NCBI GenBank assembly: GCA_021018995.1
Contig: CM037586.1
Location: 10,816,247 to 10,880,246, forward strand
Source of the DNA: Chloranthus sessilifolius
Lineage: Eukaryota > Streptophyta > Magnoliopsida > Chloranthales > Chloranthaceae
Reading direction: 5' to 3'
Length of the DNA: 64,000 bases
The notes under the pieces are model-generated. The model saw only the letters and a list, made by a program, of their open reading frames with translations. It had not been told where the DNA came from and made no database searches. Shown here piece by piece: positions 1 to 52,028 of the stretch (position 1 is its first letter; each line of letters begins with the position of its first letter). The position numbers and the translations under genes were made by a program.

Positions 1-1288
1 GTGTGTGTGTGACACCAAAAAAGTAAATAAGAATGAGACATCCTCAGGGGATGAGAAAGTGATAAAGGCATTAGTGTGATATGAATAACTGAGACCAAGT
101 AAGCTAATGAAAATGAGGCATCCCCAGGGGATGAGAAAGTGGTAAAGGCATCAATATGATGCGAGTAATTTAGACATCCTAGGGATATTGTTAAGATTGA
201 ATAATGGCTGATAAAGCCTAACTAATATAAAGTAGCACTTTTACACGGTGAATAATTATATGTAAAATACATAATATTTTTGTTATTTAAGGTTTGAGTA
301 GAATACCCTACCGACGTGGCGGGATACCTACAACTGACTCGGCAGGATATCCGTGACCGGTATGGCGGCCAATCCATACACTGGTACGGAGGTTTATCCG
401 TACACAATAAGCACATCCCAGGGATGTTGAGATGAGATTTAACCCCGCCGCTTATAAGAAAGGGGCTTGAGTAGTAGTCCCAGGAAATGCATATAACAAC
501 TGTCTATTTAGACGACGATGGTGGGTATTCCATCGGGGCTCGATGCTATATTACTTAGGGACTACTTAAGTTGAAGATTTCAGTTTTGCTTTAGGCCTAA
601 TTAGTGTAATTCATGAATAGTTTGAGAATAAATGAAACATGCAAACCACCAGTAAACTTTAAGGCATAATTGCCATCTTTTAAACTATTTTTCCTACAAA
701 TGTATAGACACATCATGCTTAACATATCATGGAATATATGTGAGATTTTTACTTATATATTCATTGTGTTGTTACCTATTGAGCTAGGATGTAGCTCACC
801 CTTTAGACAATACGTAGCAGGTCTAGTGCTAGCAGCGGCCGAGGCTTCGGGAGATGTGGATCCGGGTAATTCAGACTACGTGCCTGGGGACGAGTTGGAG
901 TCCCCTCCTGAGGACTTCTTCTAGGAGACTCCGCTAAGTACTTTGAGAGAGTAGTTTTGAGAGTATATTGATACGGCTTGGTATGTTAAGCCTTTATTTT
1001 GATAGACAATGTAATTAATTGATATATTCTTTTTGGCGAACCATCTGGGGTGATCTGTTTATCACCGATAGTTCGGATCGATTCTCTGTTCATGCAGTGG
1101 CATGAAAGTAGAACTGTCTTTTAAGTTTATACTTGGAATAGTATTTTACTTTCGCACCATGTAGTTATTGTTCTATTTTGTCTTAATATTGCTTGTTATA
1201 CTAATGTTTCGTATATAGCCATGGGGCACGATCTAGAGGATCATGCTGATGGCACGAGTTTCGAGGTGCTAAAATTTAGGCTGTCACA
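1..1288 (+). mobile_element. Tekay-type LTR fragment A (3' part)
   Basis: This stretch is cut by the window edge and ends in GGCTGTCACA, the same terminus (read as a reverse complement, rc) as the LTRs of the complete element at 38983-52028. It shares block after block with that LTR: the CCGACGTGGCGGGATA segment, the CATCCCAGGGATG block, the GAGCTA/TAGCTC stem (781-797) and the twin stem-loops near 1040-1120. It lies in the + orientation, opposite to element 3. No PBS or internal region follows; the next base begins another LTR piece, so A may be a solo LTR inserted into LTR B, but its left end is outside the window. Confidence 0.75.
775..924 (+). other. Conserved short ORF tail inside LTR A
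   Basis: The frame reads PIELGCSSP, then YVAG, an Ala-rich stretch, an acidic stretch with SDYVPG and ends ESPPEDFF-stop. The same tail ends an ORF in both LTRs of element 3 (39339 and 49834, - strand), and a version with one internal stop is in LTR B (about 1694-1836). An acidic relative with EDSE and EDSEPHPES is in LTR C (about 3380-3480). No domain is recognised. It follows the conserved stem and an AG|GT site, so it could be the first coding stretch of a spliced leader, or DNA conserved for another reason. Confidence 0.4.
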
Positions 1289-2212
1289 ATACCCCACCGA
1301 TGAGGCGGTATACCCGTGACTGGTATGGCGACCAATCAGTATATCAGCAGACATCCCAGGGATGTATATGAGTTATGTGCCCCGTTGCCTATGAGAAAGG
1401 GACTTGAGTTATATTGCGTGAAAAATAATCTGATTGGACGACGATGGAGGGTATTCTATCAGGGCTCGATGCTATATTGCTCGAAGATTATTTAAGTTAA
1501 ATTGATTTAAGTCATGAGACCAGCCCAGTTGTAATATGAGAACCAATTGAGCATGAGATGACATGTGTAGTGTAGCAATTGCATTATGTTCATTCTTTTA
1601 GTATATCTAACTGTTTTATATTGATAAAATCATGCTTCAATTTTGTCATGAAATGTATGTGAGTAAGATAGATTTACTTGTTCAGATATTTTTCCTATTG
1701 AGCTAGGATGTAGCTCACCCTTTTGACTATACGTCACAAGTTCTGAGATAGTGGCTGCATCTGGTGACAGCGATCTCGAGGACTCGGATTACGTTCCTAT
1801 GGAGGAGTCTGAGCCCCTTCCTGAGGAGTTTTTTTAGAAGACCCTCTGTGCACTTTGATAGTTGTTTTGAAAGATTATACGGCTTGGTATGTCCAGCCAT
1901 TGTTTCAGGATAATATAATCATATGAAATATTCTTTTGTCAAACCATCTGAGGTGACCGTTTTTACGTCACTGATGGTTCGGGTTGGTTCTTTTACCCAT
2001 GCAGTTGCATGAGATTAGAACTATCTTTTGAGTTATGTGTTTTAGTATTATATTATAGAACTGGAGATATAGTTCAGCATTAGTCCAATTGTACATGATT
2101 TACTTTATGGTTGTGTGGATATACCAAGTGTTCTGCTTATGTAATTGGGGCACGGCCTCGAGGGTCGTGTCGATGACACGAGCTTCGGGGTGTCAAAATC
2201 TGGGCTATCACA
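1289..2212 (+). mobile_element. Tekay-type LTR fragment B (3' part)
   Basis: Begins abruptly at a sequence homologous to about position 308 of LTR A and ends in GGGCTATCACA. It has the same order of landmarks as LTR A: the ACATCCCAGGGATG block, the GAGCTA/TAGCTC stem (1700-1716), the acidic ORF tail with an internal TGA, and the twin stem-loops near 1940-2010. It differs from A at many positions, so it is an older or different subfamily. The missing 5' part could lie left of LTR A, outside the window. Confidence 0.7.
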
Positions 2213-13554: not shown

Positions 13555-13903
13555 GATCGATCAAATTTAAAAAGTGAAATAATAAGTTTGTTCGGACGAG
13601 AATCGATTGATTGGATTTAAAATTCGATCGATCGAAGCTATAAATAAATATATCATTCAATTCGGGTCAGAATCGAGTGATCAGTTTTATAAATTGATCG
13701 ATCAAAATTAGAACAAGGAATTCACTTAGTTCTGTTCAAAATTGATCGATCGAATTTAAAGTAAACAGGTAAATCGGTTTTGTCTAGAATCGATCGATCG
13801 GACATAGGAAATCGATAGATAAAAAATATAAGTCAAAGAAGGCATTTGGTTCGGTTTAGAATCGATCGATCGATCTAGGACTCGATCGATCAAAAATAAA
13901 AAG

Positions 13904-13944
<41 letters not shown>

Positions 13945-14105
13945 CGATCGATCACTAATTAAAATCGATCAATCGATCATTAATAGAAAAAAATAAAGTC
14001 AATTCGGTTCAGGATCGTTCGATTATTTTAGCTAACAAGGAAATTTTGTTTCGGGTTAGAATCGATCAATCGCAAACAAGAATCGATCGATCAATTTTGG
14101 CATTT
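13555..14105 (-). repeat. U3 palindrome array of LTR D (AATCGATCGATCG)
   Basis: More than a dozen exact or near copies of ATCGATCGAT, often as pairs about 20 bp apart. They are arranged in blocks that each begin with a 'TTCGG...AGAATCGAT' phrase near 13594, 13668, 13736, 13790, 13857, 14006 and 14056. In the - strand reading it lies about 600-1150 bp after the LTR start, i.e. in U3 upstream of the presumed promoter. Confidence 0.85.
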
Positions 14106-18370: not shown

Positions 18371-19807
18371 GACCCCTCAAAAATAAATAAAAAAATTACT
18401 TTTATATCTTTTTGATTATATAGTTCAAGGTGAAAATTTTCAATAACAATTTTTTTAGGTGAAAAAGTCATACCTTTGACCATAAAATGAAGGATATAAA
18501 GTTAAATTATGATTTTTTTTTTTTTATAAATCTCTACAGGGATTTGTGAACACTTACACAATGTGATATAACTCACGATCCCGTGTCACATGACACATCC
18601 ATGTGGTCCCTCATAACAATGTTTTCGTGTAACGTGGAGCTCCGATAGTTTATATAGAATATAAATCAATTTAAAAACAAAATTTTAAAATAAAATTGAA
18701 AGTCAAATTTTGAATATAATTCAACAATTAAATTTAAGTACAAAAAGTAGATAGTGGAGATATTATTTTGATTTTTTTTATTTTGTTGCTGTTACAATTG
18801 ATCTAAATAATTCTATCTTGCTCCCTGTGGACGTTATAGTACCGAGAGGGTACTCCACTGGAGTACCTTCTCAGGATCCGCACCTGAGTTGTAGACTTGG
18901 GTGACACATTGGTCCCAACGGGCCAGGTAATATAGGTAGGCCTGATGCATAAATGGATTCGGCTGGACTGACCCATTAGTAAGTACGGCTGAGTACAGGC
19001 TAGTTCCAAACCCCCGATTGAAAATTGCCCAATTTAAGCCTGGCCCAAACTCGGCCCTACTCCACCAAATGAAACTCCGGCCTACTCCATCAAATGAGTT
19101 AACTTGTACAGAAATTGATAGGGGTCTGACATCCACCCTAACTCAACATGGGTTGGGTATGGGCTAATGTAAGGTAAGCCCGTTTCATAAAGTGGGCGCT
19201 ACTGGAAGACTATGGGGCCTTCACTACTTCAGTTGGGCGAACAACCCTCAATCCCAAAAACAAGTCACAATCCCTTCCCTTGTTTCTGTGTTTCATTCTC
19301 TATTGGGTGGATTATCCAATCGGGTCCCAATTTTTTCTAATCTATCCAACAAAGTCTTAACCCTAAACTTTCTTTTATTATTTACCTGCAAGGGTCACAC
19401 ATGTCTATTTTGTTACTTTAAGTTAATATTTAGAGGACCAAAATACCTTAATAGAAATTTACTAAAATATCTATTCTTCCATACGAGTTAAAAACGTTGG
19501 GTTTTCATTTTCTTCCTGTCGACGACTGGGTTTTCTCTGATCTTTATCTTCTTTCTGTAAAGATAACATTTTCTCTTCATCTTCTTTCTGTAAAGATAGC
19601 ATTAGGATTCCATATAGTCCCCCCTCTTTTCGCTTCATCTTCTTCTCTGCTGATGAACAAACAGGGAGAAATTTACTGCTGCCGTATCTGCAAACTTTTG
19701 ACTCTGCCGACGTTTCATCTTCTCCTGATCATGTACATCTAAACTTTTCTACGTGTATATCTCCAACCGTCCGATAAACTCATAAGAGCAACTCATAAAA
19801 CAGTGTT
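18371..19807. other. Intergenic, unclassified
   Basis: No gene is supported. 18880-19190 has GGGCC-like phrases recalling the hAT MITEs but no clean ends. At about 19535-19600 the phrase CATCTTCTTTCTGTAAAGATA occurs twice in a pyrimidine-rich stretch; this could be the leader of the pseudogene that follows, but that is a guess. Confidence 0.5.
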
Positions 19808-20225
19808 GTAGTAATGCTGCCCTAAATGTTCAACCTTTATTTTAATGAATGACTTGTTTGACTTATATACAAATGTGGTAATGCTGTCTTAAATGTTGAT
19901 TCTTTGTTTTAATAAATGACTTATTTGTAGTAGATAGAAATATATTAATCATGCCCTAAATGCGTAACCTTTGTATTAATGTAGTAATAGTGTCATAAAT
20001 GTTTAACCTTTATTTTAATGAATGACTTGTTTGAGCTATATACAGATGTAGTAATGTTGTCTTAAATGTTGATTTTTTGTTTTAATGAATGACTTGTTTG
20101 TGGTAGATAGAAATGTAATAATCCTGTCCTAAATGCTTAACCTTTGTATTAATATAGTAATGGTGTCATAAATGCTCAACCTTTGTAGTAGATAGAAATG
20201 TAGTAATCATGTTTTAAACTTTTTA
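19808..20225. repeat. Higher-order tandem repeat, period about 173 bp
   Basis: Eight copies of a core like GTAGTAATGCTGTCCTAAATG followed by TTNAACCTTT, at about 19808, 19875, 19943, 19981, 20047, 20114, 20154 and 20197. Three subunits of roughly 40-67 bp form a unit that repeats after about 173 bp (19808 to 19981). TTTTAATGAATGACTTGTTTG recurs within each unit. Confidence 0.85.
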
Positions 20226-20500: not shown

Positions 20501-21002
20501 CTATTATTAATTCATATAAGTCCTTTAATGTTATCACATCAATACTTTATAGATTCATATTAACCTTTGTAATAATGAATGATTTTTATCTTTAGAGATA
20601 ATAATCGACCGTGGTCCTAACTATCCCCTATTTATCCTATTTTTAGGGGACACATATAAGATCATTTTCATTTCATATAAGATCATCTAGTCTCATATAA
20701 GATAATTTCATTTCTATAATTTGTCACTCGGCAAACTTTTAATTCCATTAATTTTCTAAAAAATGACAGTTAATATTAGGAAAATATGTTTATTGTTGCA
20801 AGTATATTTATTAATTTTTTGTATGAATTGTGTTAGGTCTGTTATGAGACTTTCGTAGTCTTTAAAGAGGCCACATTTGTGTAAGACTGGTCTTGTGTTT
20901 GAATTCACTCATGGTAAACTGTAAATTCATTTATTTTTTTGAAAACTTTCTGGCCTATGTTAATAAATTTAATTGTGATGTAATGTCATAAATTATACAC
21001 AG

Positions 21003-21640
21003 GAGGATAAAATTGCATGTTCTACCATTAGGGTCTCTACTCTTATAGCTGCATTATCGCCTGTGGAGCTTGAAACTCTTAGTTCAACTGCAGTGAAGCC
21101 TCTTCTTTGTCTAATAGATACTCCTACAATTAACGAGCTGATATACATATTAATAGAAAATTTTGATTATGAGGCTGAGAGGTTCTCTATTGGCGGGTAT
21201 ACTATTGCTTTTCCCTTGCTAGAAATGTCTGCTTTACTTGGTCTCAAGCATGTTGGGATTATCCCTGAAACTCTAGGAGAAGGTTCGAAAATTGAAAATG
21301 AAGACATTAGTTTATTTTGTATGAAATATTTTGGTCGGGGAGGGAGTGTTAGTGTTGGTGAAATAGAAAAGACAGTAATTGTTGCTAGTATAGAGAAAGA
21401 AAGAGTCGATTTTACTCGTCTCACATTATCCCATATTTTTGCTACTTTTATGATACTGAATAGCTCTAAGACAATTGAAGAGACGTATGTGAGATTAGTC
21501 TATAATATTGAGTACTTTAACAGAATTGCATGGGGACGAGTTACTCATACATATTTGTTAAACTCCATTCGATCTGCCGCTTTAAATTTTAAGAGGAGTG
21601 GTGTGCATACAATCTTAATGGATATACCTTTGCATTGCAG
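21003..21640 (+). pseudogene. PMD-like exon
   Basis: An open block of 212 codons between TATACACAG and CAG|GTTAGC. The reading frame extends upstream of the GTG at 21063 to the acceptor. The pattern FSIGGYTIAFPLLEMSALLG resembles the 'L..GE.T.TL.D..LLLGL' signature of the plant mobile domain (PF10536) and related DUF1985-type segments. Further on, IEYFNRIAWGRVTHTYLL matches the 'F..Y.WG...' signature. These domains are of unknown biochemical function and occur both in transposons and in MAIN-like host proteins. Not proven without a profile search. Confidence 0.6.
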
Positions 21641-22150
21641 GTTAGCTATTGTCTTTGCGAGCGTTATCAATTTGCATATCGTTTACTGCATAATACACAT
21701 ATTCCCTAACAAATCTTTAGTTTGTGATTTATTTTAGATTTGGGCACACGAGTAATTTCCAACCATAGCGCCGATTTTAATTATTGATGATTTTTCAAGA
21801 TATACAAAGTATACCTTTGTAAAAAGTCATCATTGAAAGTATTACCTTATGGAGTTTAATAATCCAAAGGTATTATTAGCGGCAACCTCAACCAATTTCA
21901 TGTTATAGCTGTGAGTAAATGAAGAAGTCGCTTTTTTTGATAACTTGCTCTCACCCTCCTGGTAACATATTCACAGATAATTCCAAAATTTGAATTCAGT
22001 GATCATGAATTATTGGAAGACGTGATCCAGAATGGGATTAATGATTACTTTGATTGCGAATTCAATCTTCTTTAACTCCTAGAAATGTCTTTCAAAGAAC
22101 ATGGTAGTCGCATCACAGCACTGAAGAAGTCCAACAACAAACTTGTTCAC

Positions 22151-26117: not shown

Positions 26118-26414
26118 ACAAAATTTGGACAAAAATGATCCTGTCTTTTGTATCATATACTATTTTTCTCTTACCACATTAAACAGGCAGTAGTATATCA
26201 ATATGTTCATCAATAATGAAATATATTTTTTAGAACTGAACTATGAGTGCTTAAGACGTTATTTGACTTGCGCTGTCATGTAGCAATTCTAAGTTTATTC
26301 TTTTCTGCGAAGTGTTCATCAATTAAATTATACTCATACTGTCTTTTACCACTATCGCAATTATTCTGTTGTATGTTCAATTTTGTTGCAATTGTATCTC
26401 AAATCTTTATACAG

Positions 26415-26949
26415 AGAAGTTGAAATAGACGTGTATTTTGGTTGTGGAATGCATGGACACTGGATTAAATATTGTCCTCAAAAGAAGATCGTTGATGAAA
26501 AGGGTGCACCCCTCTGTTACTGTAAAAAACTAGTAGAGCTTCGGGTTTTAAACACTGATAAGAATCCCGACCATAAATATTATAAGTGTTACCATTGTGA
26601 GTTCTTTAGATGGGAGGACGAATGTTTGGTATTCGTAAATCGGACCGTCAGGAACGATGAAACAGATCACTTGGACGATCCACGTCCTCTTTGCTACTAT
26701 CAGAAGCAATCAACTTTGCGAGTTTCAAACTCTCTCAAGAATCCCGGACGTAAGTACTTTACATGTTATCAATGTCGGTACTTTAACTGGTTGGACGAAA
26801 GTTATCGAACCTCGACGCCGACGTCGAAGTTTGAGAATATTGAAAGGGATGATTTAAAAGTAAAAGTGACAGTGGAGATTGAAGAGCTCGCCAAAAAATT
26901 TGAGGTGATTACATCAATAAGCAGTAAAGGAAAAGAAAACCTTCCTTGA
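26415..26949 (+). pseudogene. Zinc-finger exon: CCHC knuckle and two GRF fingers
   Basis: Open from the acceptor TTATACAG to TGA at 26947. CGMHGHWIKYC is the core of a CCHC knuckle (the first Cys is changed: FGCG). Two GRF-type fingers follow: one with CYC..., CYHCEFFRWEDE and one with CYYQ..., CYQCRYFNWLDE and NPGRKYFTC. A Lys/Glu-rich tail ends the frame. GRF fingers bind single-stranded DNA or RNA in known proteins. It has no stop, so it is the best preserved part. Confidence 0.7.
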
Positions 26950-29216: not shown

Positions 29217-29516
29217 CGTTCGAACGACATAAAATCGATCGAACGGTTTCTAATTTCGTTTGAACGATTTTCAAACCGATCGAACGGTTTCTAATTTCGT
29301 TCGAACGGTTTTCAAATCGATCGAACGGTTTCTAATTTTGTTCAAACGGCTTTCAAACCGATCGAACGGTTTCTAAACCGATAAGAAACCTTCAGATTTC
29401 ACTCTTGACGAAATCGTTCGATCGATTTCTAATTTCGATCGAACGATTTCGTTAGATTTCACTCTTGATGAAATCGTTCGATCGATTTCTAATTTTGATC
29501 GAACGGTTTCGTCAGA
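29217..29516 (-). repeat. U3 palindrome array of LTR E (CGATCGAACGG)
   Basis: Alternating CGTTCGAACG and CGATCGAACGG units joined by GTTTCTAATTT or GTTTTCAAA. Two motifs recur every 41 bp, i.e. one about every 20.5 bp. About a dozen motif copies, plus a 62-bp direct duplication at 29399-29520. Confidence 0.9.
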
Positions 29517-30440: not shown

Positions 30441-31060
30441 GAGAGGTTCAGGGAACCTCTCGACAGGTTCTGGGTGTAATTGCTCTTCATTTCGACAGGA
30501 TCTTCGTGGCTTTCGACAGGATCTGGAAACATCTCGAGGGGTTGAGCTGCATTAGTTGATAGGATTGGATGACTCGTCGACAAGATCTAAACAACGTTTC
30601 GACAGGATTGCAACTTCTCGACAGGATTGGAAACTCGTTTCATCATTATGTCCATTTCTCCATTTATCCTCTCGACAGGTTATGCTAATCCTGTCGGCTG
30701 GTTCTACAAATTAGCACTGAGCTCTTGACAAGTTGGTTCAATCCTTGCGAGAATAAGTATAGCTTCAGGCAAGCTGTCGACAGGTTGAATTAGATTGCTC
30801 GACAGGCTTTGCTGAACCTCGTGAAAAGTATCTGTAACCTCTCGACACCTTCCTGTTTCCAACTCTAGTCCTCTCGATAGGTTTGCTTACGAAACCCGTC
30901 GATAAGTGTTCTAGAACCTCGTGACATCTACTGACATCCTCTCGAACACTTTAGTAGTTCTCCTCAGAACCTCTCGACATATTATAATCAACCTTCAGAA
31001 CTTCTCGGCAGGTGCTGGGAAGCTCTAGATAGCTTCATGGAACCTCTCGACAGCTTGTTT
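30441..31060 (-). repeat. U3 array of element 1 (CTCGACAGG)
   Basis: Around 25 exact or one-off copies of [C/T]TCGACAGG[A/T]T and its complement in about 620 bp, for example two TTCGACAGGATCT units exactly 21 bp apart. It lies about 370-990 bp after the LTR start in the transcription direction. A second array of the same motif is at 33974-34303. Confidence 0.85.
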
Positions 31061-38352: not shown

Positions 38353-38977
38353 TACCCCAAACCTACACTTTGCTAGTCCTCGAGCAAAGCAAACTAAAGA
38401 AAATAAATGCCACTTTCGTAGGGAACACGATTGCACTTAGCATGTGTAATAAGCCTTTAAACCCCTAGGTGATCTCTTGTGGAGGAGTTGTTTCTCCTGA
38501 GGGTTTACAGTGAAGTTACCCATAAACTTCCAAAAATTTCAAACCATCGGCAAAATTGAGTTTTCAAAATATGATTTTTTTTATATTTATAACATATATA
38601 CTATTCAAAAACAAAAACATTAATTATTTTAATATGTGAATCATCAATCTTAAATATCAATGTCATGTCAATCATGCTAGCATCCATTCAAATTAACCTA
38701 ATGCTCAAATTGTTAGATAAGTCATCCATTCAAGCCTAAACGTGAAGTGTGTGCATACCAAAATCAAGATTCATCCATCTCGAAACCAATTTAAACAGTA
38801 AATCATCAGATCTCATGTGTCGACTTAATCCTCACTTTAGGTATACTCTCAAAATAAAATCACTTCGATGATGGGTAAGTTTTCGCACACATGTGAGAGA
38901 TCAATACAAAGCAAGCAAAAAGGTCTCATATGATAAATGAAACACGATGCAATCAATGAACAAAGATAAATCTCATA
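38353..38977 (-). other. Polypurine tract and conserved 3' UTR of element 2
   Basis: The polypurine tract GGTTTGGGGTA (rc) lies at 38353-38363, the stem CTTTGCT/AGCAAAG at 38368-38389 and the conserved block at 38405-38526. The UTR is cut at 38978 by element 3 and continues at 52034. Confidence 0.75.
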
Positions 38978-39990
38978 AGAATTGTGACAGCCCGGATTTC
39001 GGCACCCCGAAACCCTTGCCATCAGCACGATCATCTTGACCGTGCCCTTTAGCTAAGCACGGAACACTGGTATATCAAGCATCAAAAAGTATAATAAACG
39101 AAATTGCGGAATTTAAATCTATATTAATTAACTCTCCAAAAGACAGTTCTACCCTCATGCCTCTACATGAATGGAGAACCGATCCGAACCATCGATGATA
39201 GCAATCATCACGGATGGTTCGTCCTAAAAGAGAAATCCCAACTCCTTATATACATGATTTTAAAAAAAATAAAGGCTTGACATACCAAGCCGTACAAAAC
39301 CTCTCCAATAATCTCTCAAAGTGGCACAACGGAGTCCTCTAGAAGAAGTCCTCTGGAGGTGGCTCCAACTCTTCGCCGACCGCAAGGTCCGACTCACCGG
39401 GGTCAGTGTCTCCTGAAGCCTCGGCAGCTGCTAGTAGTGGACCTGCGACGTATAGTCTATAGGGTGAGCTACATCCTAGCTTAATAGGGAACAAACACGG
39501 TTGAACATATAAATTATGACTCACATATATTCCATGATATGCCATGCATGATGTGTCTATGCAGTTGTTGATGAAAATAGTTAAAAAGCATTTCATTTTA
39601 CTGTTCATTACATATGTTTTTATTTAATCATGAATGATGCTGAAAAGGCCTAAAGCAAAACTTAAACTTTCAACTTAAGTAATCCCCGAGCAATATAGCA
39701 TCGAGCCCCGATGAGATACCCATCATCGTCATCTATATAGACAGTTTTAACCATATTCCCTGGGAATACAAATAGTACCCAAGCCCATTTCCCCTGGGGA
39801 TTGGTGGCGGGGTTTCACTTATCTCAATCAACACCCCTGGGGTGTGCTTACTATGTACGGATAAGCCTCCGCACTGGCCTACGGTTTCGCTGCCGTATCG
39901 GTCACGGATATCCTGCCGTGTCAGTCGTGGATATCCCACCACGTCGGTGGGGTACCCTATCAAACCTCAAATAACAAAAATATCGGTGCC

Positions 39991-40000
39991 TTATATATAG
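39991..40000 (-). promoter_or_regulatory. TATA box of element 3 LTR
   Basis: CTATATATAA on the - strand, about 460 bp downstream of the palindrome array and ahead of the presumed R region. In the 5' LTR the matching site has one change (TATATGTAA, about 50488-50497). Confidence 0.6.
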
Positions 40001-40462
40001 TTATTCACCGTGTAAGTGTGCTATCTTATATCAGTTAGGCCCTATCAAACATGATTTAATCTTGGATACATCCCTGGGATGTATCCATTTACTTGCATCA
40101 CACCTGATGCTCTTATCTCTTTACTTCTTCATCCCATGGGGATGGCTCATTATGATTACTCTTATGGATGTCACACACATACACTTTTCACAAATTCTTA
40201 AGAAATAAACCTTTGAATTGAATTCTATATCACTACATATATGCTCTTGTAAAATAAAGTACATGTTCAAGGTGTTCCCTACCTCAAGTCTTCATTTGAT
40301 CAATGCATCAAGGTCCCACGTGGCTCCTTGTGCACTAGTCCACACGTACCTCCTATGGTACCACATAACAGGTAAAACACATCACAAAGGATGCAATAAA
40401 GAAGGTATAAGACCCTCCAAGAATCTTAAAGTCAAACCCAAAAGTCAACACAATTTATCTCA

Positions 40463-40970
40463 GTCGATTAATCGAATTCCAAAATCGATTAATTGAATCT
40501 GATTCGATTAATCGATTAATCGAAGGTCAATATCGATTAATCGAAGTAAATTCGATTAATCGAAATTCTCTGTTTCGCAAAGTCGATTCTCAATTCGAGT
40601 AGTCGAGTTTTCATTCGATTAATCGAATCCTAATTCGATTAATCGAAATTCTCAGTTTCGCAAAGTCGATTCTCGATTCGAGTAGTCGAGTTCCTAAAAT
40701 CGATTAATCGATCCCAAATTGATTAATCGAAAACTGAAATCGATTAATCGAAATCCCATTTTGATTAGTCGATTTTCCTCAAGTCCTTTCCTCCAGTCCC
40801 CTGGGGTCCACTGGAGGTTCCCAGTCGATTAATCGATACTCAAATCGATTAATCGAAATCCAAGGTCGATTAATCGAACTCCAATTCGATTAATCGAAAT
40901 CGGGTCTTCTGACTTTTCAACTTCCTGGCCAATTTCGATTAATCGAAACCCAATTTCGATTAATCGAAAT
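40463..40970 (-). repeat. U3 array of TCGATTAATCGA in the 3' LTR
   Basis: About 15 perfect CGATTAATCG palindromes plus several one-off versions and CGAGTAGTCG variants. Runs at 20, 21 and 20 bp spacing occur, for example at about 40824-40890. Confidence 0.95.
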
Positions 40971-41556
40971 TGTCAGATTCAGCCCCTTTCGAGCTGTTCT
41001 TCCCAATCTTCTTCCATACTTTTTCCTCTATTTTTCTAAGCCATTATCCTATGATTTAACCCACATTCAACCACAACTTGACCCCTATAATCTATGCATT
41101 TTATTTACAAAAATTTTACCTTGAATAGATCTCAAGTTGATTTCAATCCAGTGGTTGGAAGGCTAGGGTTTCCAGCTTTGGCTCTAACAGATCCAAACCG
41201 TGTTGAATCCGGCTTTTATCGCTTGAATCCCCCCTCCAATCAGTTGCAATAACTCCTCTCTTTACTTCCTCTCTCTCTCTCTCTCTTCTTTACTTCTCTC
41301 TCAACCACCAAAAACACACATTTAGAGTTATTAAACCCTTTTATCCCTTTCCTCACTTGTGTGTTGAGCACCTACACCGCGATAGGTGTATGCGACTTCC
41401 CATTTACGACACACACCACATGGGCATTCAATTTATCATATCTCATCCGTTCATTACACCACATACTAACTGTTGGACTTCCATTTGGTCAAACCTATGA
41501 CCGATCGGGCACGGATCCCGAGGTCATAGTTTAGCATGATTTTTCAGGCTATTACA

Positions 41557-41572
41557 TCCTCCCCACTTTGGG
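41557..41572 (-). other. Polypurine tract of element 3
   Basis: On the - strand AAAGTGGGGAGGA directly abuts the 3' LTR start (TGTAATAGCC); it is the expected primer for plus-strand synthesis. Confidence 0.8.
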
Positions 41573-41813
41573 AATTTTCATCCCCGAAAATAACCCAAGG
41601 TTTGTCTGTCTGGGTCACTCCCCCCCCCCCCACACTCTCAGGTGAGGTGGTCCAGTTGACTCAGACGTATTTAGGTATGCACAACACAAGCATAGAAGTA
41701 ATTTTTACGTAATTGAAACCATATACTCAAAAAAAAAAAAAAAAATTTTGATTTCTATTAATATCAGAAAATTTTTACAAAGCGCCACATGAGTTGGCGT
41801 ACAAAACATACAT

Positions 41814-42465
41814 CTATACAATCATGACTAATAATATAAAAAAATAAAACTCATGCAATCCCCACAGTGTGTCAGTGCTACAGAGCTGGTGTGTCTCATT
41901 GAGCCGACTGTGGCTGGTGGTGGTGAGGTGGGCCGGGTGGTGGTCAGTGGGCTGCGTGTCTCGGCATGGAGTGGATGTGGATGTGGAAGGAGCCGCGCCT
42001 GCAGTGGTGGGATGGAAGACGGGTCCTCGATGGAAGGCGGTGCGTCCAGCGGCCCACTCCTCCTCCTGGGCGAGGTAGCGGTGTGATCGGTCGGGTAGAT
42101 GTGGGAGTGTGTGGAACATCAAGAAGTCCATCCTCCGTTCATCCGCTTGTTGGCCACCATACGAGCCAACACGCCTCGATGGTAGGACCGGATGGAGCGG
42201 CGCCAGTGGTAGGATGAGGTGGGTGTGTGGCGGAGTGGGCGTGGCGTCGGTGAGGTCTTTGTGTGGGAGGGAACCCTCTCACGGATGGTTCTGGGGAATA
42301 GGGTGCCACCACCCAGGTGGGTCCCGCCGAGGTGGTGGGGTGGTGGCGGTACTGCTGCTGCTCGCTGTCATGAGCGGACCCGGAGCCGGGTAGGGTCTGC
42401 TTTAGAAGGTTGTAAGACGGGTCCATGAAGACTTTGTAAACGCGTCTTCACGCGATCCGTAGCCC
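41814..42465 (-). pseudogene. Broken, GC-rich C-terminal extension of the extra ORF
   Basis: After the stop of the 303-codon ORF, open stretches in changing frames (42426-42139 and 42131-41814) encode Pro/His/Thr-rich sequence, including HRYLAQEEEWAAG. High GC contrasts with the surroundings and produces long shadow ORFs on the + strand. It probably was the tail of the extra protein before frameshifts. Function unknown. Confidence 0.4.
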
Positions 42466-43377
42466 TCACCTCGTGAGTGTCAGAGAGGAGGGCTCGTCGG
42501 AGTAGCACTCCAACATGCTCGAGATGAGCCGAGCATACGGCATCTTCTCCTTGGGCCGCATGTTGCCCTTCATCAACTTTCCTTTGATGTACTTCATCCC
42601 TTCTAGGATGACTAAAGTAGCATCAAACCATCGGCCACAGAAGGCCGCATAAAGTGCATGTTGCACTTTGTCCACACGCTCGGTGTCGTGGCGCATTGGG
42701 TAGAGGTTGCACTTTATCACCGAGTCGAGCATCCACATATAGTGTGGAAGGTCAACCCTTTTAATGGAGGAGCCCGACCCCTTCTTGCCGTTAGTCATGC
42801 GGGTCATGACCTCTTCAAAGTGGGGGTCTTCCTCAAAGGGCGGAAAGAGGGTAGTTTCGGGGGTGAAATCGAGGTAGCACTCGAGTACCTCGTGGATGTG
42901 ACGTCGAGTGATCGTATAGAGACGACCCTCGATCTTGGTCAAAATACAATTATCGGTAGGGCCATCGGTTAGCCCTTGGTAGAACAGTCTAACCAATCTA
43001 GGGTAGTATGAACCTCGGATTGGTTTGAGAAGGTTGCCGAGGCCGGCGTTATTGAGGTAGTTTCGAGCCCATTCGGTCTCGCCCGGCACATCGGGATCGG
43101 TGAATAGGGTAGGGTTGATGACGTACTCGACCTCAAAGGTCTTGGCCGCCCACCATTCGTTTGGTTGTATTACATTTGTGGGTGGTGGGGGCATGGGGGT
43201 GGACTCACGGGAAGACTCGCGCGTAGACGCGCTCGTCGAACCGGAGGTGGTCTCCGATTCCGACGGTGATGGAGTCCTCACCGGCGATGGGGTAGGTGGT
43301 GGTGGTGCGGCGTTCTTACGCCTAACCGGCAACTTAGAAGTTGCCTTCTTTGAAGATAGACAGGTTTTGGGCGGCAT
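42466..43377 (-). CDS. Extra ORF of element 3 (putative plant transposon protein domain)
   Basis: An uninterrupted 303-codon ORF starting MPPKTC, in the sense direction of the element between pol and the 3' LTR. Residues about 15-70 are Pro/Ser/Thr-rich and low complexity. From about residue 75 a globular region contains FTDPDVPGETEWARNYL, YYPRLVRLFYQGL and LYTITRRHIHEVL. This resembles the domain Pfam calls 'putative plant transposon protein' that accompanies many plant Ty3/gypsy elements; its function is unknown. The ATG lies about 190 nt downstream of a TATA box, itself adjacent to the family's palindrome array, which suggests separate transcription. It has no stop, while gag and pol are damaged. 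Confidence 0.65.
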   Translation of the reverse strand: MPPKTCLSSKKATSKLPVRRKNAAPPPPTPSPVRTPSPSESETTSGSTSASTRESSRESTPMPPPPTNVIQPNEWWAAKTFEVEYVINPTLFTDPDVPGETEWARNYLNNAGLGNLLKPIRGSYYPRLVRLFYQGLTDGPTDNCILTKIEGRLYTITRRHIHEVLECYLDFTPETTLFPPFEEDPHFEEVMTRMTNGKKGSGSSIKRVDLPHYMWMLDSVIKCNLYPMRHDTERVDKVQHALYAAFCGRWFDATLVILEGMKYIKGKLMKGNMRPKEKMPYARLISSMLECYSDEPSSLTLTR

Positions 43378-43584
43378 TTTGAGAAAATCTAGGGTTTATC
43401 TAGTTCAAATTTGAAAGAAAAGTGTGAAATTAGGGTTTACCGTAGGTTTTGATGGCGATGCGAGCCGAAAACCGTCGGAAAAAGGGAACCCTAGGGCACC
43501 GGATTGTCGGAGAAGAGCAAGAAGGTGAAACGCCCAAAAATCTTCAAGCAAAAATAATTTCGAATGGGGAATGAAATCCCCAAA

Positions 43585-43597
43585 TTTTTATATATAG
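43585..43597 (-). promoter_or_regulatory. TATA box upstream of the extra ORF
   Basis: CTATATATAAAAA on the - strand, about 210 nt before the ATG at 43377 and about 10 bp after the palindrome array. It is very like the LTR TATA box (CTATATATAA). Inferred internal promoter; no transcript evidence is available here. Confidence 0.55.
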
Positions 43598-43605
43598 GCC
43601 TCGGC

Positions 43606-44234
43606 TCGATTAATCGATATTCTGTTTCGATTAATAGAAATTCAAAACTAGGTTAAGCCGCGTAAAATCGATTAATCGATTTCCCAAATCGATCAATCGA
43701 AAATTAGATTCGATTAATCGAAAACATTTCGATTAATCGAAATCGTATCCGTTTAAAAATTTAAGTTTTTGAGCTCACTGGCGCGAGCCAGTCGATTAAT
43801 CGAAATCCATTTCGATTAATCGAAAATTCAAAATCGATTAATCGAAATTTTACTTCGATTAATCAAAATCGTGCAGTAACTTCTAAATTTCCAGAATTCC
43901 TTAAGTTATTCGATTAATCGAAATCCATTTCGATTAATCGAAATTTCAAAATCGATTAATCGAAGTTCACTTTGATTAATCGAAATCGTATATCTGAATT
44001 CAATTTCTTTTAAGTCCTTTTGTAAATCGATTAATCGAGATTCCAGTTCGATTAATCGAAATCCAATATCGATTAATCGAGATTCCAACTCGATCAATCG
44101 AAATTTGCCTTCTATGTATATTCTAACTCTCCTTTCAATTTCCAGTCACTGGTACATGCCAGTCGACTAATCGAACAAAATCGATTAATCGAAATTCCAA
44201 ATCGATTAATCGATTTGAAATTCGATTAATCGGT
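43606..44234 (-). repeat. Internal TCGATTAATCGA array after pol
   Basis: About 20 perfect or one-off copies of the LTR motif, in blocks of three to four motifs spaced 20-22 bp. Blocks start near 43670, 43793, 43909, 44027 and 44160 (about 115-130 bp apart) and are separated by unrelated spacers. It begins about 200 bp after the end of pol in the sense direction. Confidence 0.95.
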
Positions 44235-44441
44235 TTTGCCCAATTTCTGCAGAATTTCAATCTCTTTGTTTCTTTGATTTCTTTTGGTAGTTTATGACAT
44301 CAAGTGGTTCATCCATAGAGTTGTATATACTTGATCATGTACGTATAATTCTGTTCCTCAAATCAGATTGGATCAAATTTTCCATTGAATTACAAGTATA
44401 GTGGAGATTTCACAAACATGTTTGTGGTTTATATTGAATTC

Positions 44442-47423
44442 TCACGTCGTTGGAAACAAGGCTGGATATTGTTCTTTCACATCGGCCTCTCGTTCCCAAG
44501 TAGCCTCTTCTTTTGGATGATTATTCCACCGAACAAGCACTAAGGGAATCACTTTAGTGCGCAGTACTTGTTCCTTTCGATCCAAGATTTCCACTGGTTC
44601 CTCTATCATGCTCATGGCCTCACACATCTCTATAGGTTGCTTTCCTAATACATGAGACGGATCATTCACGTACTTCCTGAGCATCGATATGTGGAAAACA
44701 TTATGTACTCGATCAAACAGCGGTGGTAAACCAATGCGATATACAACTTCACCTACTCGTCCCAAAATTTCAAACGGTCCAACATAACGTGGACTTAACT
44801 TCCCTCTCTTGCCAAATCTCATTACACCTTTCATAGGTGATACTTTCACAAACACGTGCTCGCCCACCTTATAGTCGACACTAGTCCGCTTCATGTCGGC
44901 GTAACTTTTCTGTCTACTCTGTGCTGTCTTCAACCTTTCTCTGATAATTCGAACAACGGTGGCGTTGTCTTCAAGTAGTTTCGGTCCTAATACAAATTTC
45001 TCACCTGTTTCCTCCCAATTGAGAGGTGACTTGCATCGTCGTCCATACAGAGCTTCATACGGTGCCATGCCAATGCTCGTTTGAAAACTGTTATTATATG
45101 CGAACTCGAGCATCGGTAGATACTCATCCCAGTATCCTTGCATATCAAGCATGCACGCCCTGAGCATGTCTTCTATTACTTGGTTCACTCGCTCTGTCTG
45201 CCCATCAGTTTGAGGATGGAAAGCTGAACTAAAGTCTAGTCGTGTTCCCATTCCTTCTTGAAATTTCTTCCAAAACTTGGACGTATATAGTGGATCACGA
45301 TCTGAAACTATGCTGCTTGGAATCCCATGTAATCTTACAATCTCCTTCATGTATAAATCGCGATCTTCTGCTGTATACGTAGTATTGTACGGCAAAAAGT
45401 ACGCTGATTTGGTCAATCGGTCTACGACGACCCAAATGGCATTGTGTCTCTTGGCAGTACGGGGTAATCCAACAATGAAATCCATTGAGATCGATTCCCA
45501 CTTCCATTCTGGTATTGGTAAAGGTTGCAATAGTCCCGCAGGATGTCTATGATCAACCTTCACCTGCTGACAAGTCAAACATCGTGACACATACTCGGCC
45601 ACGTCTTGTTTCAGTCCTCTCCACCAGTAGTTCTTTTTTAAATCTTGGTACATTTTGGTGCTACCAGGGTGGATAGCATAATTTGACTTATGGGCCTCAT
45701 CAAGAATCGTTTGTCTTAGATTGGCATTGTCCGGAATGCATAGACGGCCTTTAAACAATAAGGAACCATCTTCTTTAACCGAGAAGTCTGACCTAATGCC
45801 TTCACTCACGTCTTGATGAATCTTTGTTAATGCCGGATCTTTCATCTGTAGATCGTGGATATGCTCAAATATCACTGGCTTTACTGATATGTTAGCCAAA
45901 AAGGATCCGGTGTCCTTTGACTCAATGTTCGCATCATAGAGTGCCAGGTCTTCCAATAATTTCCATCGGTGCATACCCAAAATCAACGAAGCTAACTGAG
46001 CTGAACCTTTCCGACTCAGAGCATCGGCTACTACATTCGCCTTACCTGGATGGTATTGTATGGAGCAATCGTAATCCTTGAGGAATTCCATCCACCTGCG
46101 CTGTCTCATGTTGAGCTCTTTCTGTGTAAACAGGTATCGGAGGCTCTTATGGTCTATGAAAATTTCAAAAGTCTCACCATACAAGTAATGTCTCCAAATC
46201 TTCAGCGCAAAAATGACTGCTGCCAGTTCCAAGTCATGAGTCGGGTAATTTTTCTCGTGTTCTTTCAGCTGTCTTGATCCGTAAGCTATCACCTTCTTGT
46301 GTTGGTTGAGCACACAACCAAGGCCATTGTATGACGTATCGCTGTACACGGCGTATCCTCCACTGCCTGAAGGAATCGCTAATACTGGAGCTGAAGTGAG
46401 TCTCGTTTTGAGTTCTTGAAAGCTCTTCTCGCATGCCTCACTCCACTCAAACCTTGAATCTTTTCGTGTTAGCTTTGTGAGAGGTCCCGATATCTTTGAA
46501 AACCCCTCGACGAAACGTCGATAATAGCTTGCTAAGCCCAGAAAACTTCGGACATCGGTCACTGTCTTTGGTTGCTCCCATTTAACTACTGCTTCTATCT
46601 TTGCTGGATCTACCGTGACACCATGCTTTGAGACGACATGTCCCAAAAAGCTAACTTCTTCCAACCAAAACTCACACTTGCTGAGTTTGGCGTACAATTG
46701 GTGTTCACGTAGCGTCTGTAGAGCAATCCTCAAATGTTCTTCGTGTTCCGTCTTGGATTTGGAGTATATCAGTATATCATCGACAAACACTACGACGCAA
46801 GAGTCCAAGTGTGGTTTAAACACTCGATTCATCAGATCCATAAACGATGCCGGAGCATTCGTCAATCCAAACGGCATCACAAGGAATTCATAGTGTCCAT
46901 ACCGTGTCCGGAAAGCCATTTTCTGAATGTCCTCTGCCTTGACTCGCAACTGATGATACCCAGATCTCAGGTCGATCTTGGAAAAATACCTTGCTCCTTG
47001 CAGTTGGTCGAATAGATCGTCAATTCTAGGCAAAGGGTAGCGGTTCTTCACAGTGAGTTTGTTCAATTGTCGATAGTCAATGCATAGCCGCATTGACCCA
47101 TCCTTCTTCTTGACAAACAAGACCGGTGCTCCCCATGGAGATACACTCGGTCTAACAAACCCCTTATCCATAAGTTCTTGTAGTTGTTCCTTCAATTCCT
47201 TTAACTCAGCGGGAGCCATTCTATAAGATGCTTTTGAAATAGGCTCCGTTCCTGGTGCTAAGTCAATGGCGAATTCTACTTCTCTTTCTGGAGGTAATCC
47301 AGGCAATTCCTCTGGAAATACGTCAGCGAAGTCTCGCACAACTGCTATCTCAGAAATGACGTTCTTTTCTTCCTTGTCCTCCTTTAAGAAAGCCAAGTAT
47401 CCACTGCAACCCTTTCTGATCAT
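44442..47423 (-). CDS. Tekay pol: RT, RNase H, integrase, chromodomain-like end
   Basis: 993 codons without a stop. RT spans about residues 60-240, with catalytic FVDD at 213-216 and [11 protein letters not shown] before it. RNase H follows with SDTS (Asp), HDLELAAV (Glu), [10 protein letters not shown] (Asp) and [10 protein letters not shown]. Integrase starts with the HHCC zinc region ([10 protein letters not shown] ... CLTCQQ), then SMDFIVGLP (Asp), VSDRDPLY (Asp) and [14 protein letters not shown] (Glu). The end, [19 protein letters not shown], is a chromodomain-like segment typical of the Tekay/Del chromovirus clade and thought to guide insertion into heterochromatin. The first Met is internal: normally this region is fused to protease, and a one-base shift at about 47424-47450 separates them. 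Confidence 0.95.
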
Positions 47424-47853
47424 CTTTTCCCTTTCATCACGAGATCAAGGTACAGATATGACGACCTCACTCCTTGAAACCGAAATGATCTTCTTGTGTT
47501 GGGTCTGAAAATGACTACCTTATTCTTGCAATCGACGGTCGCACAATGCTGCGCCAACCAGTCCATGCCAAGGATCACATCAAACCCTTGCATGTCTAAC
47601 AGTATCAACTTTGCTTCTAGTTCATGCACCTCTAAGTCTCGAACTGCTACAATGATGGATTTGCAAGCTAACTCCGTGTCTACTAACTCTCCAGTCGGAA
47701 TAGACACAGATAGGACGAAATCCAACGTCTCTGAAACAATCTTCATCTTCTTAGCGAAACGTGGAGTGATGAATGAGTGGGTAGACCCGGGGTCTATCAA
47801 CACTCGAGCGTCATATCCACCGAAGCATCCTTTTTCATATATATTTAGAGTAC
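47420..47853 (-). CDS. Tekay protease (second exon of gag-protease)
   Basis: Aspartic protease with catalytic motif [11 protein letters not shown] (Asp-Pro-Gly in place of Asp-Ser/Thr-Gly, a variant seen in plant elements) and the flap-side [12 protein letters not shown]. It starts after an apparent intron acceptor TACTATAG|GT at 47854. It ends at TGA (47420) out of frame with pol. Normally it cleaves the Gag-Pol polyprotein in the particle. Confidence 0.8.
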
Positions 47854-48021
47854 CTATAGTATACAGACATACATACAATAATTTACACATCAATTTACAC
47901 TCTTAATTCACATACAACTTTTTGTATTGAGAAAGAATCTATATAATTTCTAATGCATGCTCCTTCTCTATCTAAAATTTTAATGAAATGAAAATTTTCT
48001 TTAATTTTAAAAGGGTCTCAC
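47854..48021 (-). other. Putative 168-bp spliceosomal intron in gag-protease
   Basis: On the - strand the donor CCAAG|GTGAGA (48021) and acceptor TACTATAG|GT (47854) bound an AT-rich, T-rich insert with in-frame stops. Splicing joins the codon pairs so that ...DVIQ is followed by GTLNIYEK, the usual sequence between the Gag knuckles and the protease in this clade. Its length is a multiple of three, but it contains stops. Confidence 0.65.
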
Positions 48022-49190
48022 CTTGGATGACGTCATGCACGTTCCCTGCTTCCTGAGCAGTGATTGCATAGGCTCTCCCCTGGACGATCGGTTTCCTTGC
48101 TTGAATTGGTCGTGGTGCTGCAACTGAAACCGTCTTTCTCTTATCCGTCTCGGGGCAATCCTTGATCAAGTGGCCCACCTTGCCACATCAGAAGCAACCC
48201 CTAGTTCCCGATCTACAGTCCACCGTCCTATGAGGCTTGCCACACTTTGCGCAAGTCTCCCGAAGTGCGGAAGAAACAGTACGAGAACCCTGTGTGACAG
48301 TGGCGCCAGTAGACATGGCAGGGCTCTCATAGCGAATCGGTCTCCCCGACGCAAGTAATGGAAACCTCTGTTGGTGTTGTTGTTGTTGCGCCGGTCTTCC
48401 GAAACCCCTTGAACTGGTCTCTGATTCTGGGCCATGAACCTCGGCTTTTTGTTCACCGGTTCGTAGTGCCCCGATCTTCCTTGTTCATTTCCTCCTCTCT
48501 GCTGCTCTCTCTGTCGGTATCTATTTGTATTTTCTTCTTCAACCACCAGTGCTTTACTCATGACCTCTTCATAGGTCCTCAGTTGAAATGGAGCTACGCC
48601 TCCCCTAACCTCAGGCTTCAAACCTTGTTGAAACCTCTTGGACTTCATCACTTCAGTAGCGACGTAATCCGGAGCAAAACGGGCAAGTCGTAGAAACTCC
48701 ACCCCATATTCTCTCACTGTCATCCTCCCTTGCACTAATTGTAAGAATTGTATCTCAAGCTGGTTCCTCACCACTTCCGAAAAATATTGTTTGTTGAACT
48801 CCTCAACAAACTCCTCCCAAGTCCAAGGCAACTCTGGGGTCTCCTGAGCCCGAGTCCGTATCACGGACTTCCACCAAGGCCCAGCCTCCCCATCCAACAT
48901 GTAAGCTGCCCATCTCACACTCTCATCTTTCGTGCAAGTTAGCACGCTAAAGACTTTCTCCATCTCCATCAACGCCATTGTGTCTCGCCGCCTGAAAATG
49001 AAGGAGGTCTCATCCTCCTAAACTCGTAAAGATGAGGGCACAGCAACGCAGTCCTGGTGGTGTAGGTGGTCTTTTCTTGACGCATGAGCCGCAAAGGATG
49101 CGGCTGTTGTGCCATGCCATGGCATGCCATAGTCTCCATAGTGTGCATCATCCTTGTCGCTTTCTCTGCCTCTTCTTGTCTTTCTCTCAC
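48022..49190 (-). pseudogene. Tekay gag with frameshifts
   Basis: The N-terminal part (49190-48969) ends in FRRMRPPSFSGG. A shift follows, then the capsid-like region from MEMEKVFSVL through GEAGPWWKSV, FVEEFNKQYF and REYGVEFLRLARFAPD (48978-about 48350). A second shift near 48300-48350 moves the zinc knuckles into another frame: CAKCGKPHRTVDC is intact, and the second knuckle C-F-x-CGKVGHLIKDC has a TGA in place of Trp (48188-48190). Gag forms the particle and packages RNA; three lesions make this copy defective. Confidence 0.85.
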
Positions 49191-49463
49191 CTTTCTTGCT
49201 CTCTTAGATCTTGATCCCGACGATCTCGATCCTCTTCGTCATGTTGTTCTACTACCATCGCTCGGGCCTCAAGATTCCTAAAGGCACTCTATTAGTAGGA
49301 GAGATGTAATCATCTCCACTACGTAGACTCCTCTGCTGGCCTCCCCTTGGTCGGCCTCTTCCTCTAGATGACATTTGCGGCTGCATTTGAAACTAAAGTT
49401 TCGTTAGCAGAAGCCCCTATATTCTGACGAAAGAACCCTTGTCAGAATTGCTAAAAGAAAATA

Positions 49464-49475
49464 GCTTTGATACCA
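49464..49475 (-). other. Element 3 primer-binding site (initiator Met tRNA)
   Basis: TGGTATCAAAGC on the - strand, two bases from the 5' LTR end (GCTGTCACA); one mismatch to the standard TGGTATCAGAGC. Confidence 0.85.
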
Positions 49476-49477
49476 AC

Positions 49478-52028
49478 TGTGACAGCTCGAATTTCGATAC
49501 CCCGAAACTCGTGCCATCAGTACGATCATCTTGACCGTGCCCTTTAGCTAAGCACGGAACACTGGTATATCAAGCATAAAAAAGTATAATAAACGAAATT
49601 GCAGAATTTAAATCTATATTAATTAACTCTCCAAAAGACAGTTCTACCCTCATGCCTCTACATGAATGGAGAACCGATCCGAACCATCGATGATAGCAAT
49701 CATCATGGATGGTTCGTCCCAAAAGAGAAATCCCAACTCCTTATATACATGATTTTAAAAAAAATAAAGGCTTGACATACCAAGCCATACAAAACCTCTC
49801 CAATAATCTCTCAAAGTGGCACAACGGAGTCCTCTAGAAGAAGTCCTCTGGAGGTGGCTCCAACTCTTCGCCGGCCGCAAGGTCCGACTCACCGGGGTCA
49901 GCGTCTCCTGAAGCCTCGGCAGCTGCTAGTAGTGGACCTGCGACGTATAGTCTATAGGGTGAGCTACATCCTAGCTCAATAGGGAACAAACACGGTTGAA
50001 CATATAAATTATGACTCACATATATTCCATGATATGCCATGCATGATGTGTCTATGCAGTTGTTGATGAAAATAGTTAAAAAGCATTTCATTTTACTGTT
50101 CATTACATATGTTTTCATTTAATCATGAATGATGCTGAAAAGGCCTAAAGCAAAACTTAAACTTTCAACTTAAGTAATCCCCGAGCAATATAGCATCGAG
50201 CCCCGATGAGATACCCATCATCGTCATCTATATAGACAGTTTTAACCGTATTCCACAGAATACAAATAGTACCCAAGCCCCTTTCCCCTGGGGATTGGTG
50301 GCGGGGTTTCACTTGTCTCAATCAACCCCCCTGGGGTGTGCTTACTATGTACGGATAAGCCCCCGCACTGGCCTACGGTTTCGCCGCCGTATCGGTCACG
50401 GATATCCTGCCGTGTCAGTCGTGGATATCCCGCCACGTCGGTGGGGTACCCTATCAAACCTCAAATAACAAAAATATCGGTGCCTTACATATAGTTATTC
50501 ACCGTGTAAGTGTGCTATCTTATATCAGTTAGGCCCTATCAAACATGATTCAATCTTGGATACATCCCTGGGATGTATCCATTTACTTGCATCACACCTG
50601 ATGCTCTTATCTCTTTACTTCTTCATCCCATGGGGATGGCTCATTATGATTACTCTTATGGATGTCACACACACACACTTTTCATAAATTCTTAAGAAAT
50701 AAACATTTGAATTGAATTCTATATCACTACATACATGCTCTTGTAAAATAAAGTACATGCTCAAGGTGTTCCCTACCTCAAGTCTTTATTTGATCAATGC
50801 ATCAAGGTCCCACGTGGCTCCTTGTGCACTAGTCCACACGTACCTCCTATGGTACCACATAACAGGTGAAACACATCACAAAGGATGCAATAAAGAAGGT
50901 ATAAGACCCTCGAAGAATCTTAAAGTCCAACCCAAAAGTCAACACAATTTATCTCAGTCGATTAATCGAATTCCAAAATTGATTAATCGAATCTGATTCG
51001 ATTAATCGATTTCCAAAATCGATTAATCGAAGGTCAATATCGATTAATCGAAGTAAATTTGATTAATCGAAATTCTCTGTTTCACAAAGTCGATTCTCAA
51101 TTCGAGTAGTCGAGTTTTCATTCGATTAATCGAATCCTAATTCGATTAATCGAAATTCTCAGTTTCGCAAAGTCGATTCTCGATTCGAGTAGTCGAGTTC
51201 CTAAAATCGATTAATCGAAATCCCATTTTGATTAGTCGATTTTCCTCAAGTCCTTTCCTCCAGTCCCCTGGGGTCCACTGGAGGTTCCCAGTCGATTAAT
51301 CGATACTCAAATCGATTAATCGAAATCCAAGGTCGATTAATCGAACTCCAATTCGATTAATCGAAATCGGGTCTTCTGACTTTTCAACTTCCTGGCCAAT
51401 TTCGATTAATCGAAACCCAATTTCGATTAATCGAAATTGTCAGATTCAGCCCCTTTCGAGCTGTTCTTCCCAATCTTCTTCCATACTTTTTCCTCTATTT
51501 TTTCTAAGCCATTATCCTATGATTTAACCCACATTCAACCACAACTTAACCCCTATAATCTATGCATTTTATTTACAAAAATTTTACCTTGAATAGATCT
51601 CAAGTTGATTTCAATCCAGTGGTTGGAAGGTTAGGGTTTCCAGCTTTGGCTCTAACAGATCCAAACCGTGTTGAATTTGGCTTTTATCGCTTGAATCCCC
51701 CCTCCAATCAGTTGCAATAACTCCTCTCTTTACTTCCTCTCTCTCTCTCTCTCTCTCTTCTTTACTTCTCTCTCAACCACCAAAAACACACATTTAGGGT
51801 TATTAAACCCTTTTATCCCTTTCCTCACTTGTGTGTTGAGCACCTACACCGCGATAGGTGTATGCGACTTCACATTTACGACACACACCACATGGGCATT
51901 CAATTTATCATATCTCATCCGTTCATTACACCACATACTAACTGTTGGACTTCCATTGGGTCAAACCTATGATCGATCGGGCATGGATCCCGAGGTCATA
52001 GTTTAGCATGATTTTTCAGGCTATTACA
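49478..52028 (-). mobile_element. 5' LTR of element 3
   Basis: Same layout as the 3' LTR: palindrome array at 50957-51436, stem block at 49961-49977, ORF with PIELGCSSP..PPPEDFF at 50118-49834. Relative to the 3' LTR it lacks about 40 bp (two motifs) at one place and has 13 bp more at another. The extreme end differs by several transitions (GCTCGAATTTCGATACC against GCCCGGATTTCGGCACC). Confidence 0.92.
50957..51436 (-). repeat. U3 array of TCGATTAATCGA in the 5' LTR
   Basis: About 14 perfect motifs in the same order as the other LTR apart from the two copy-number differences. Confidence 0.95.

Follow-up and report, generated by a model that had tools for sequence, protein, structure and literature searches.

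Palindrome arrays of element 3 and the surrounding window

The window analysed here is a 64,000-nt stretch of the Chloranthus sessilifolius genome (assembly GCA_021018995.1, contig CM037586.1, positions 10,816,247 to 10,880,246). On its minus strand lies element 3, a chromodomain-bearing Ty3/gypsy long terminal repeat (LTR) retrotransposon with an additional open reading frame (aORF) between pol and the 3′ LTR. Arrays of the palindrome TCGATTAATCGA occupy the U3 region of both LTRs and the interval directly upstream of the aORF; the relation between this palindrome and the aORF protein is the subject of this work. With gag, protease, reverse transcriptase (RT), integrase and LTRs present, element 3 is not a VANDAL Mutator-like DNA transposon. 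The chromodomain (PF00385) at the integrase C-terminus scored 24.2 bits (E 3.2e-5), slightly below the cut-off of 25.1. The aORF frame stops sooner in the window copy than in two other genomic copies, L012 (508 aa) and L030 (552 aa).

TCGATTAATCGA occurs exactly 44 times in the window: 15 times in the 3′ LTR, 13 times in the 5′ LTR, 15 times in the internal array and once at 59553. The two LTR arrays listed in an earlier note on this DNA are therefore real, and the internal array is a third one which that list did not include. Throughout the 2.17-Gb genome, to which all genome-wide counts and searches below refer, TCGATTAATCGA was found 241,617 times compared to 55 for the reversed string. No exact copy was present in five control stretches of 8 kb fetched at round coordinates, so the palindrome is not equally frequent in random DNA. 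Within the LTR of element 3 the array spans offsets 590–1093 and a TATA-like CTATATATAAGG, the presumed promoter, follows at offset 1557, in agreement with the proposed order of array and promoter.

We also scanned the window without prior motif for any 8-mer occurring at least 6 times within 600 bp (the maximum was 4 in 530 trials on Markov-1 resamples). The scan flagged the three arrays of element 3 together with arrays D (13.3–14.4 kb), E (28.9–29.9 kb) and that of element 1 (30.1–31.2 kb), and all of them include TCGA. The sole further region flagged, at 8084–8810, is a plain duplication, a tandem pair of a 364-bp unit whose copies are 93% identical. In element 2 and a solo LTR, the CAATCGATTGAC pairs comprise 1–2 exact sites per place (2–3 with an ATCGAT core) and stayed under the threshold. 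Hence, of the six array-bearing families claimed previously, four were recovered by the scan. Three further strings given there, CGATCGAACGG, AATCGATCGATCG and CTCGACAGG, are present in 4, 2 and 4 exact copies, respectively. The CGA core thought to be common to all families holds within the window; as a general rule it does not, since diverged aORF families differ (see below).

Table 1. Element 3 and the other array-bearing features, in window coordinates
Feature	Position	Strand	Remarks
5′ LTR, element 3	49458..52028	-	self-BLAST pairing with 38963-41556 at 93.9% identity
U3 array, 5′ LTR	50958..51434	-	13 exact TCGATTAATCGA
gag ORF	48166..48978	-	
protease ORF	47420..47893	-	
pol ORF	44442..47423	-	RT, RNase H, integrase, chromodomain
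internal array	43606..44232	-	between pol stop and aORF; 15 exact TCGATTAATCGA, the last at 44213, then degenerate copies up to 44232
TATA box TATATATA	43589..43596	-	~10 bp downstream of internal array, 219 nt 5′ of aORF ATG
3′ aORF	42466..43377	-	303 aa in window copy, PF20167-like domain
3′ LTR, element 3	38963..41556	-	self-BLAST pairing; starts TGTAATAG on minus strand
U3 array, 3′ LTR	40464..40967	-	15 exact TCGATTAATCGA
TATA-like CTATATATAAGG	39989..40000	-	~464 bp downstream of array
partial sibling LTR of element 3	105..2055	+	U3 left of window (L080), same array there
array D	13555..14105	not assigned	ATCGATCGAT type
array E	29217..29516	not assigned	CCGWTCGAWCGG type
element 1 array	30441..31060	not assigned	CCTGTCGACAGG type

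Different palindromes in diverged aORF families

A genome search with the aORF gave 130 scored matches from 50,398 first-look candidates, of which the 30 best-scoring, window copy included, are referred to as family I. A chromovirus pol end lies near the aORF in all 30. Upstream of the aORF, whose orientation was checked, 29 of the 30 loci carry 8–21 exact TCGATTAATCGA, and none occurs in the matched ORF part; the internal array is thus present in 28 of the 29 other copies, and the possibility raised earlier that arrays might be absent from most of them did not materialize. In the exception, L029, which has zero TCGATTAATCGA, marker words for the pol end and the aORF start are 63 nt apart, compared to 850–1136 nt elsewhere, and the array is gone. 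A deletion would account for this, with splicing weighed as an alternative. The start string could be located in 21 of the 30 loci (it was not in the other 9), and in 19 of these 21 TATATATA stands 185–241 nt 5′ of the start codon, the misses being L014 and L029. The aORF of element 3 looks to be placed behind its own TATA promoter.

A second search with the PF20167 profile (150 scored of 13,856 first-look candidates, the 30 best used) led to a diverged family II, with proteins of 394 aa in L045 and L048. Upstream regions of family II contain zero TCGATTAATCGA; instead, most of the 30 loci hold (T)CACGGACGTCCGTG(A) arrays. CACGGACGTCCGTG occurs 2,526 times genome-wide versus 2, and its 12-mer core 9,483 times versus 14; the exact 14-mer is mostly solitary among the sites listed. 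Six extra loci picked for odd profile ranges added 3 to family II, 2 to a family III with the palindrome CCTCGCGAGG, frequently GCCTCGCGAGGC, and 1 to a family IV with a palindrome of GTGGTTAACCAC type.

Allowing up to 2 mismatches, at least 4 sites of the own palindrome were found upstream of the aORF in 29/30 (I), 31/33 (II), 2/2 (III) and 1/1 (IV) loci, that is 63 of 66 with an array directly upstream; in family II the exceptions were L044 (0 own sites) and L056 (3). At least 4 sites of another family's palindrome were found in 0 of 66 loci, giving a diagonal count table. The palindrome thus differs between families and sits at an equivalent position in each. Groups I–VI and their motifs were defined by us from the loci that were also counted, except for L076–L078, which were fetched once motif II was known and all three carry it. 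As motifs II–IV were discovered in the counted loci, their test is the excess over shuffles.

Three of the five control stretches (L041, L042 and L043) turned out to contain diverged aORFs, 28–52% identical to a family I protein, so that such genes look very common in the genome. Upstream of the aORF, L041 carries an array of CCTCTCGAGAGG (count 8) and L043 one of TCGCGA type (count 6), each equalled by 0 of 100 shuffles, with upstream limits set by eye; wider limits with 12 shuffles agree. In L042 the best palindrome was equalled by 89 of 100 shuffles and no array was retained. At 2 mismatches the family III motif also reaches counts of 5 (L041) and 4 (L043), since motifs III, V and VI are alike; these three are therefore separated less cleanly than I, II and IV. 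In total, five different palindromes, plus a weaker sixth, are associated with aORF relatives, and in families I to V the repeated site has two-fold symmetry.

The carriers of these genes may include Ty1/copia as well as Ty3/gypsy elements. In three family II loci (L076, L056 and L046) an RNase H tail, which we take to be of Ty1/copia origin, lies upstream of the aORF; Pfam gives no match there. In L079 (family IV), the PF20167 ORF directly follows an LTR-like stretch with palindromes upstream of a TATA box, TATATAAA and TGGTATCAGAGC, the last presumably a primer binding site by its resemblance. For family II, 7 of 29 gaps between site clusters on C1 measure 3.4–10.8 kb compared to about 2 expected (first 50 sites listed, 30 clusters), a hint, suggestive only, that its LTRs carry palindrome arrays.

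Conservation and spacing of the palindromes

In all five comparisons made, palindromes were more conserved than the spacers between them, a difference to which repeat homogenisation and an aligner biased toward matching motifs may contribute. The sibling LTR L080, the one other LTR copy in which the LTR array was looked at, has it, with 7 exact palindromes and 18 TCGATTAA half-sites. Compared to element 3 its identity is 160/170 (94%) in palindromes, 114/192 (59%) in spacers and 612/917 in the remaining stretch. In family II, palindromes versus spacers gave 92/96 (96%) versus 169/272 (62%) for L045–L048, 59/62 (95%) versus 102/199 (51%) for L045–L078, 96/109 (88%) versus 142/279 (51%) for L048–L057 and 75/110 (68%) versus 127/243 (52%) for L048–L077.

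Between the two LTRs of element 3, CpG was kept at 36 of 40 sites inside the array and 52 of 63 outside, without clear difference, and protection of CpG in the arrays was dropped as an idea. All differences taken together amount to 4/467 in the array versus about 54/2085 outside (Fisher p 0.024), for one element only and with counts back-calculated from rates.

Spacings were collected for gaps of up to 60 bp with 1–2 mismatches allowed. Those of 19–23 bp account for 458/582 in the family I internal arrays, 27/32 in the LTRs of element 3 and L080, 112/160 in family II, 3/3 in family IV, 9/11 in E and 3/6 in element 1. Such a spacing is not common to all, as judged by D (only 4/16) and family III (0/12, mainly 30–39 bp). 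In L041 and L043, with 3 mismatches of ten allowed, spacings of about 20 and 32 bp are mixed with others. Tandem Repeats Finder reports periods of 20–21 bp. Read as helical turns, 21 bp would be two of them and about 32 bp three.

Predicted fold of the aORF protein and its proposed role

Family I proteins match PF20167 (Transposase_32) with 32.7 bits (E 9e-8) for the window copy and 29.2–30 bits for others, below the curated cut-off of 45, compared to 66.8–67.1 bits, above it, in family II. A structure model of the element 3 protein gave one clear match in the PDB, VANC21 with its target DNA (9lnj), which predicts a VANC21-like DNA-binding fold. With a second model, VANC21 was absent among the 50 Foldseek matches listed. 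At the sequence level, two proteins each of families I and II and 3 homologous ones showed no match to DUF1985 or DUF287, even at E values as high as 10, and the aORF is therefore not classed as a VANC family member. PDB sequence searches with profile A3, P0004 and the DUF1985-like ORF described next returned no relatives under E 0.08, VANC21 not being among them, and a viral structure library gave no match at E ≤0.001.

The window itself holds an ORF (20979–21737, plus strand) with a weak match to DUF1985, the domain of VANC proteins (E 4e-5, below cut-off). Tandem repeats with periods of 67 and 173 bp (19807–20184) precede it by about 0.8 kb. Together they possibly represent a Mutator-like element with a VANC system of its own. 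No homologues of this ORF were found at E 1e-3, and homology between it and the aORF was rejected (hhalign probability 0.2%). Elsewhere on the plus strand, 10292–12529 comprises a DUF4371 ORF (10424–11044) followed by more open frames, which we take to be a hAT-like transposon remnant, and 26293–26946 is an ORF with a GRF zinc finger (E 3e-12).

Taken together, these results make it probable that the protein encoded by element 3, of predicted VANC21 fold, has the palindrome arrays as its likely operators and sequence-specific anti-silencing as the outcome. The earlier view, in which a sequence-specific factor reads an operator-like array and VANC is the precedent, gains support from the family-specific palindromes, their conservation and the model match. 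The aORF protein would bind its own palindromes in U3, allowing genome-length RNA to be made, and those directly upstream of its own TATA box, creating a positive feedback. Binding would be as a dimer, as suggested by the two-fold sites and by a long C-terminal helix in the low-confidence model, and may be cooperative along one helix face given the 21 and ~32 bp spacings. By analogy with VANC on VANDAL elements, DNA methylation would be lost and both promoters opened. If the protein binds and derepresses its own palindromes, each family would read only its kin.

The same binding could be that of an ordinary transcription factor, or of a repressor for copy-number control, and leave silencing unaffected. 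The two TATA-like sites, each with an array upstream, are what an activator or autorepressor needs, and a VANC-like fold argues for DNA binding, not for demethylation. However, VANC21, the only functionally known relative of the predicted fold, is reported to remove silent marks, activation not being its primary effect (PMC5735166), and we regard this alternative as possible but unlikely. Less probable still is that host transcription factors, a different one per family, read the arrays while the aORF has another role, such as an env-like one. Plant LTRs often use host factors, and arrays D, E and that of element 1 lie in the window with no aORF in view; yet this reading fits poorly with an array directly before the aORF in almost every locus, with the equal spacing of different palindromes in several families and with the VANC21-like fold predicted for the aORF. 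A functionless by-product of slippage multiplying 20-bp LTR units, although Retand retrotransposons commonly have family-specific tandem repeats (PMC11963269) and the periods from Tandem Repeats Finder fit, is very improbable, as it is mainly a two-fold symmetric palindrome that is repeated while the spacers vary.

LTR retrotransposons make up a large share of big plant genomes, and an open question is how methylation is evaded for the time they need to spread. For several families of one genome both a protein and its target can now be named as candidates; if the anti-silencing reading is true, extra ORFs of a so far unexplained class gain a function. A 2026 sunflower paper states that whether extra-ORF proteins modulate the epigenetic landscape of their own elements is still to be investigated (PMC12844716). 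Among titles and abstract openings, with subscription journals mostly outside, we found no paper that ties the aORF of a retrotransposon to a cognate palindrome array, and, by title, none on the 9lnj structure in 8 of the 9 papers with VANC21; PF20167 is named in one paper of those searched. There is about an even chance that a VANC-fold gene with its cognate palindrome array constitutes a portable self-recognition module shared by plant mobile elements, namely chromovirus-like, probably Ty1/copia LTR, and Mutator-like ones. In that case many aORFs called 'env-like' or 'Transposase_32' would act as sequence-specific regulators of anti-silencing, and the palindromes, with sites two or three helical turns apart, would form an incompatibility code by which each family wakes only itself.

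Several known systems share part of this arrangement. Maize Grande gene23 is a 3′ aORF with its own upstream promoter and a nuclear protein, but is antisense, and the accessible part of the paper describes no operator array (PMC7264820). Retand TRP28 combines an extra ORF and family-specific repeats between pol and the 3′ LTR, with DNA binding suggested; however, the ORF is antisense with domain PF04195, and the source, as far as accessible, has neither palindromes nor a link between protein and repeats (PMC11963269). Sunflower Athila 14 carries a 3′ aORF similar to PF20167, predicted to be nuclear, for which, in contrast, env-like roles are proposed (for Tekay 5′ aORFs, roles in RNA silencing), and a cognate palindrome array is not described in the accessible text (PMC11728184). 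There is also a likeness to VANC anti-silencing of Arabidopsis VANDAL (Mutator-like) DNA transposons (PMC5735166, PMC10398659), where the motif is YAGTATTAY for VANC21 and AGTTGTCC or AGTTGTAC for VANC6 (PMC5735166). VANC differs in belonging to DNA transposons rather than LTR retrotransposons, and in the DUF1985 domain, undetected in the aORF proteins; the sites here are perfect palindromes, mostly CpG-bearing, and their arrays precede the promoter of the LTR as well as that of the aORF. Both systems nevertheless have an element-encoded protein, here with a predicted fold matching the VANC21–DNA crystal structure, arrays of a short motif in the noncoding DNA of the own family, here the putative target, and different motifs in related families.

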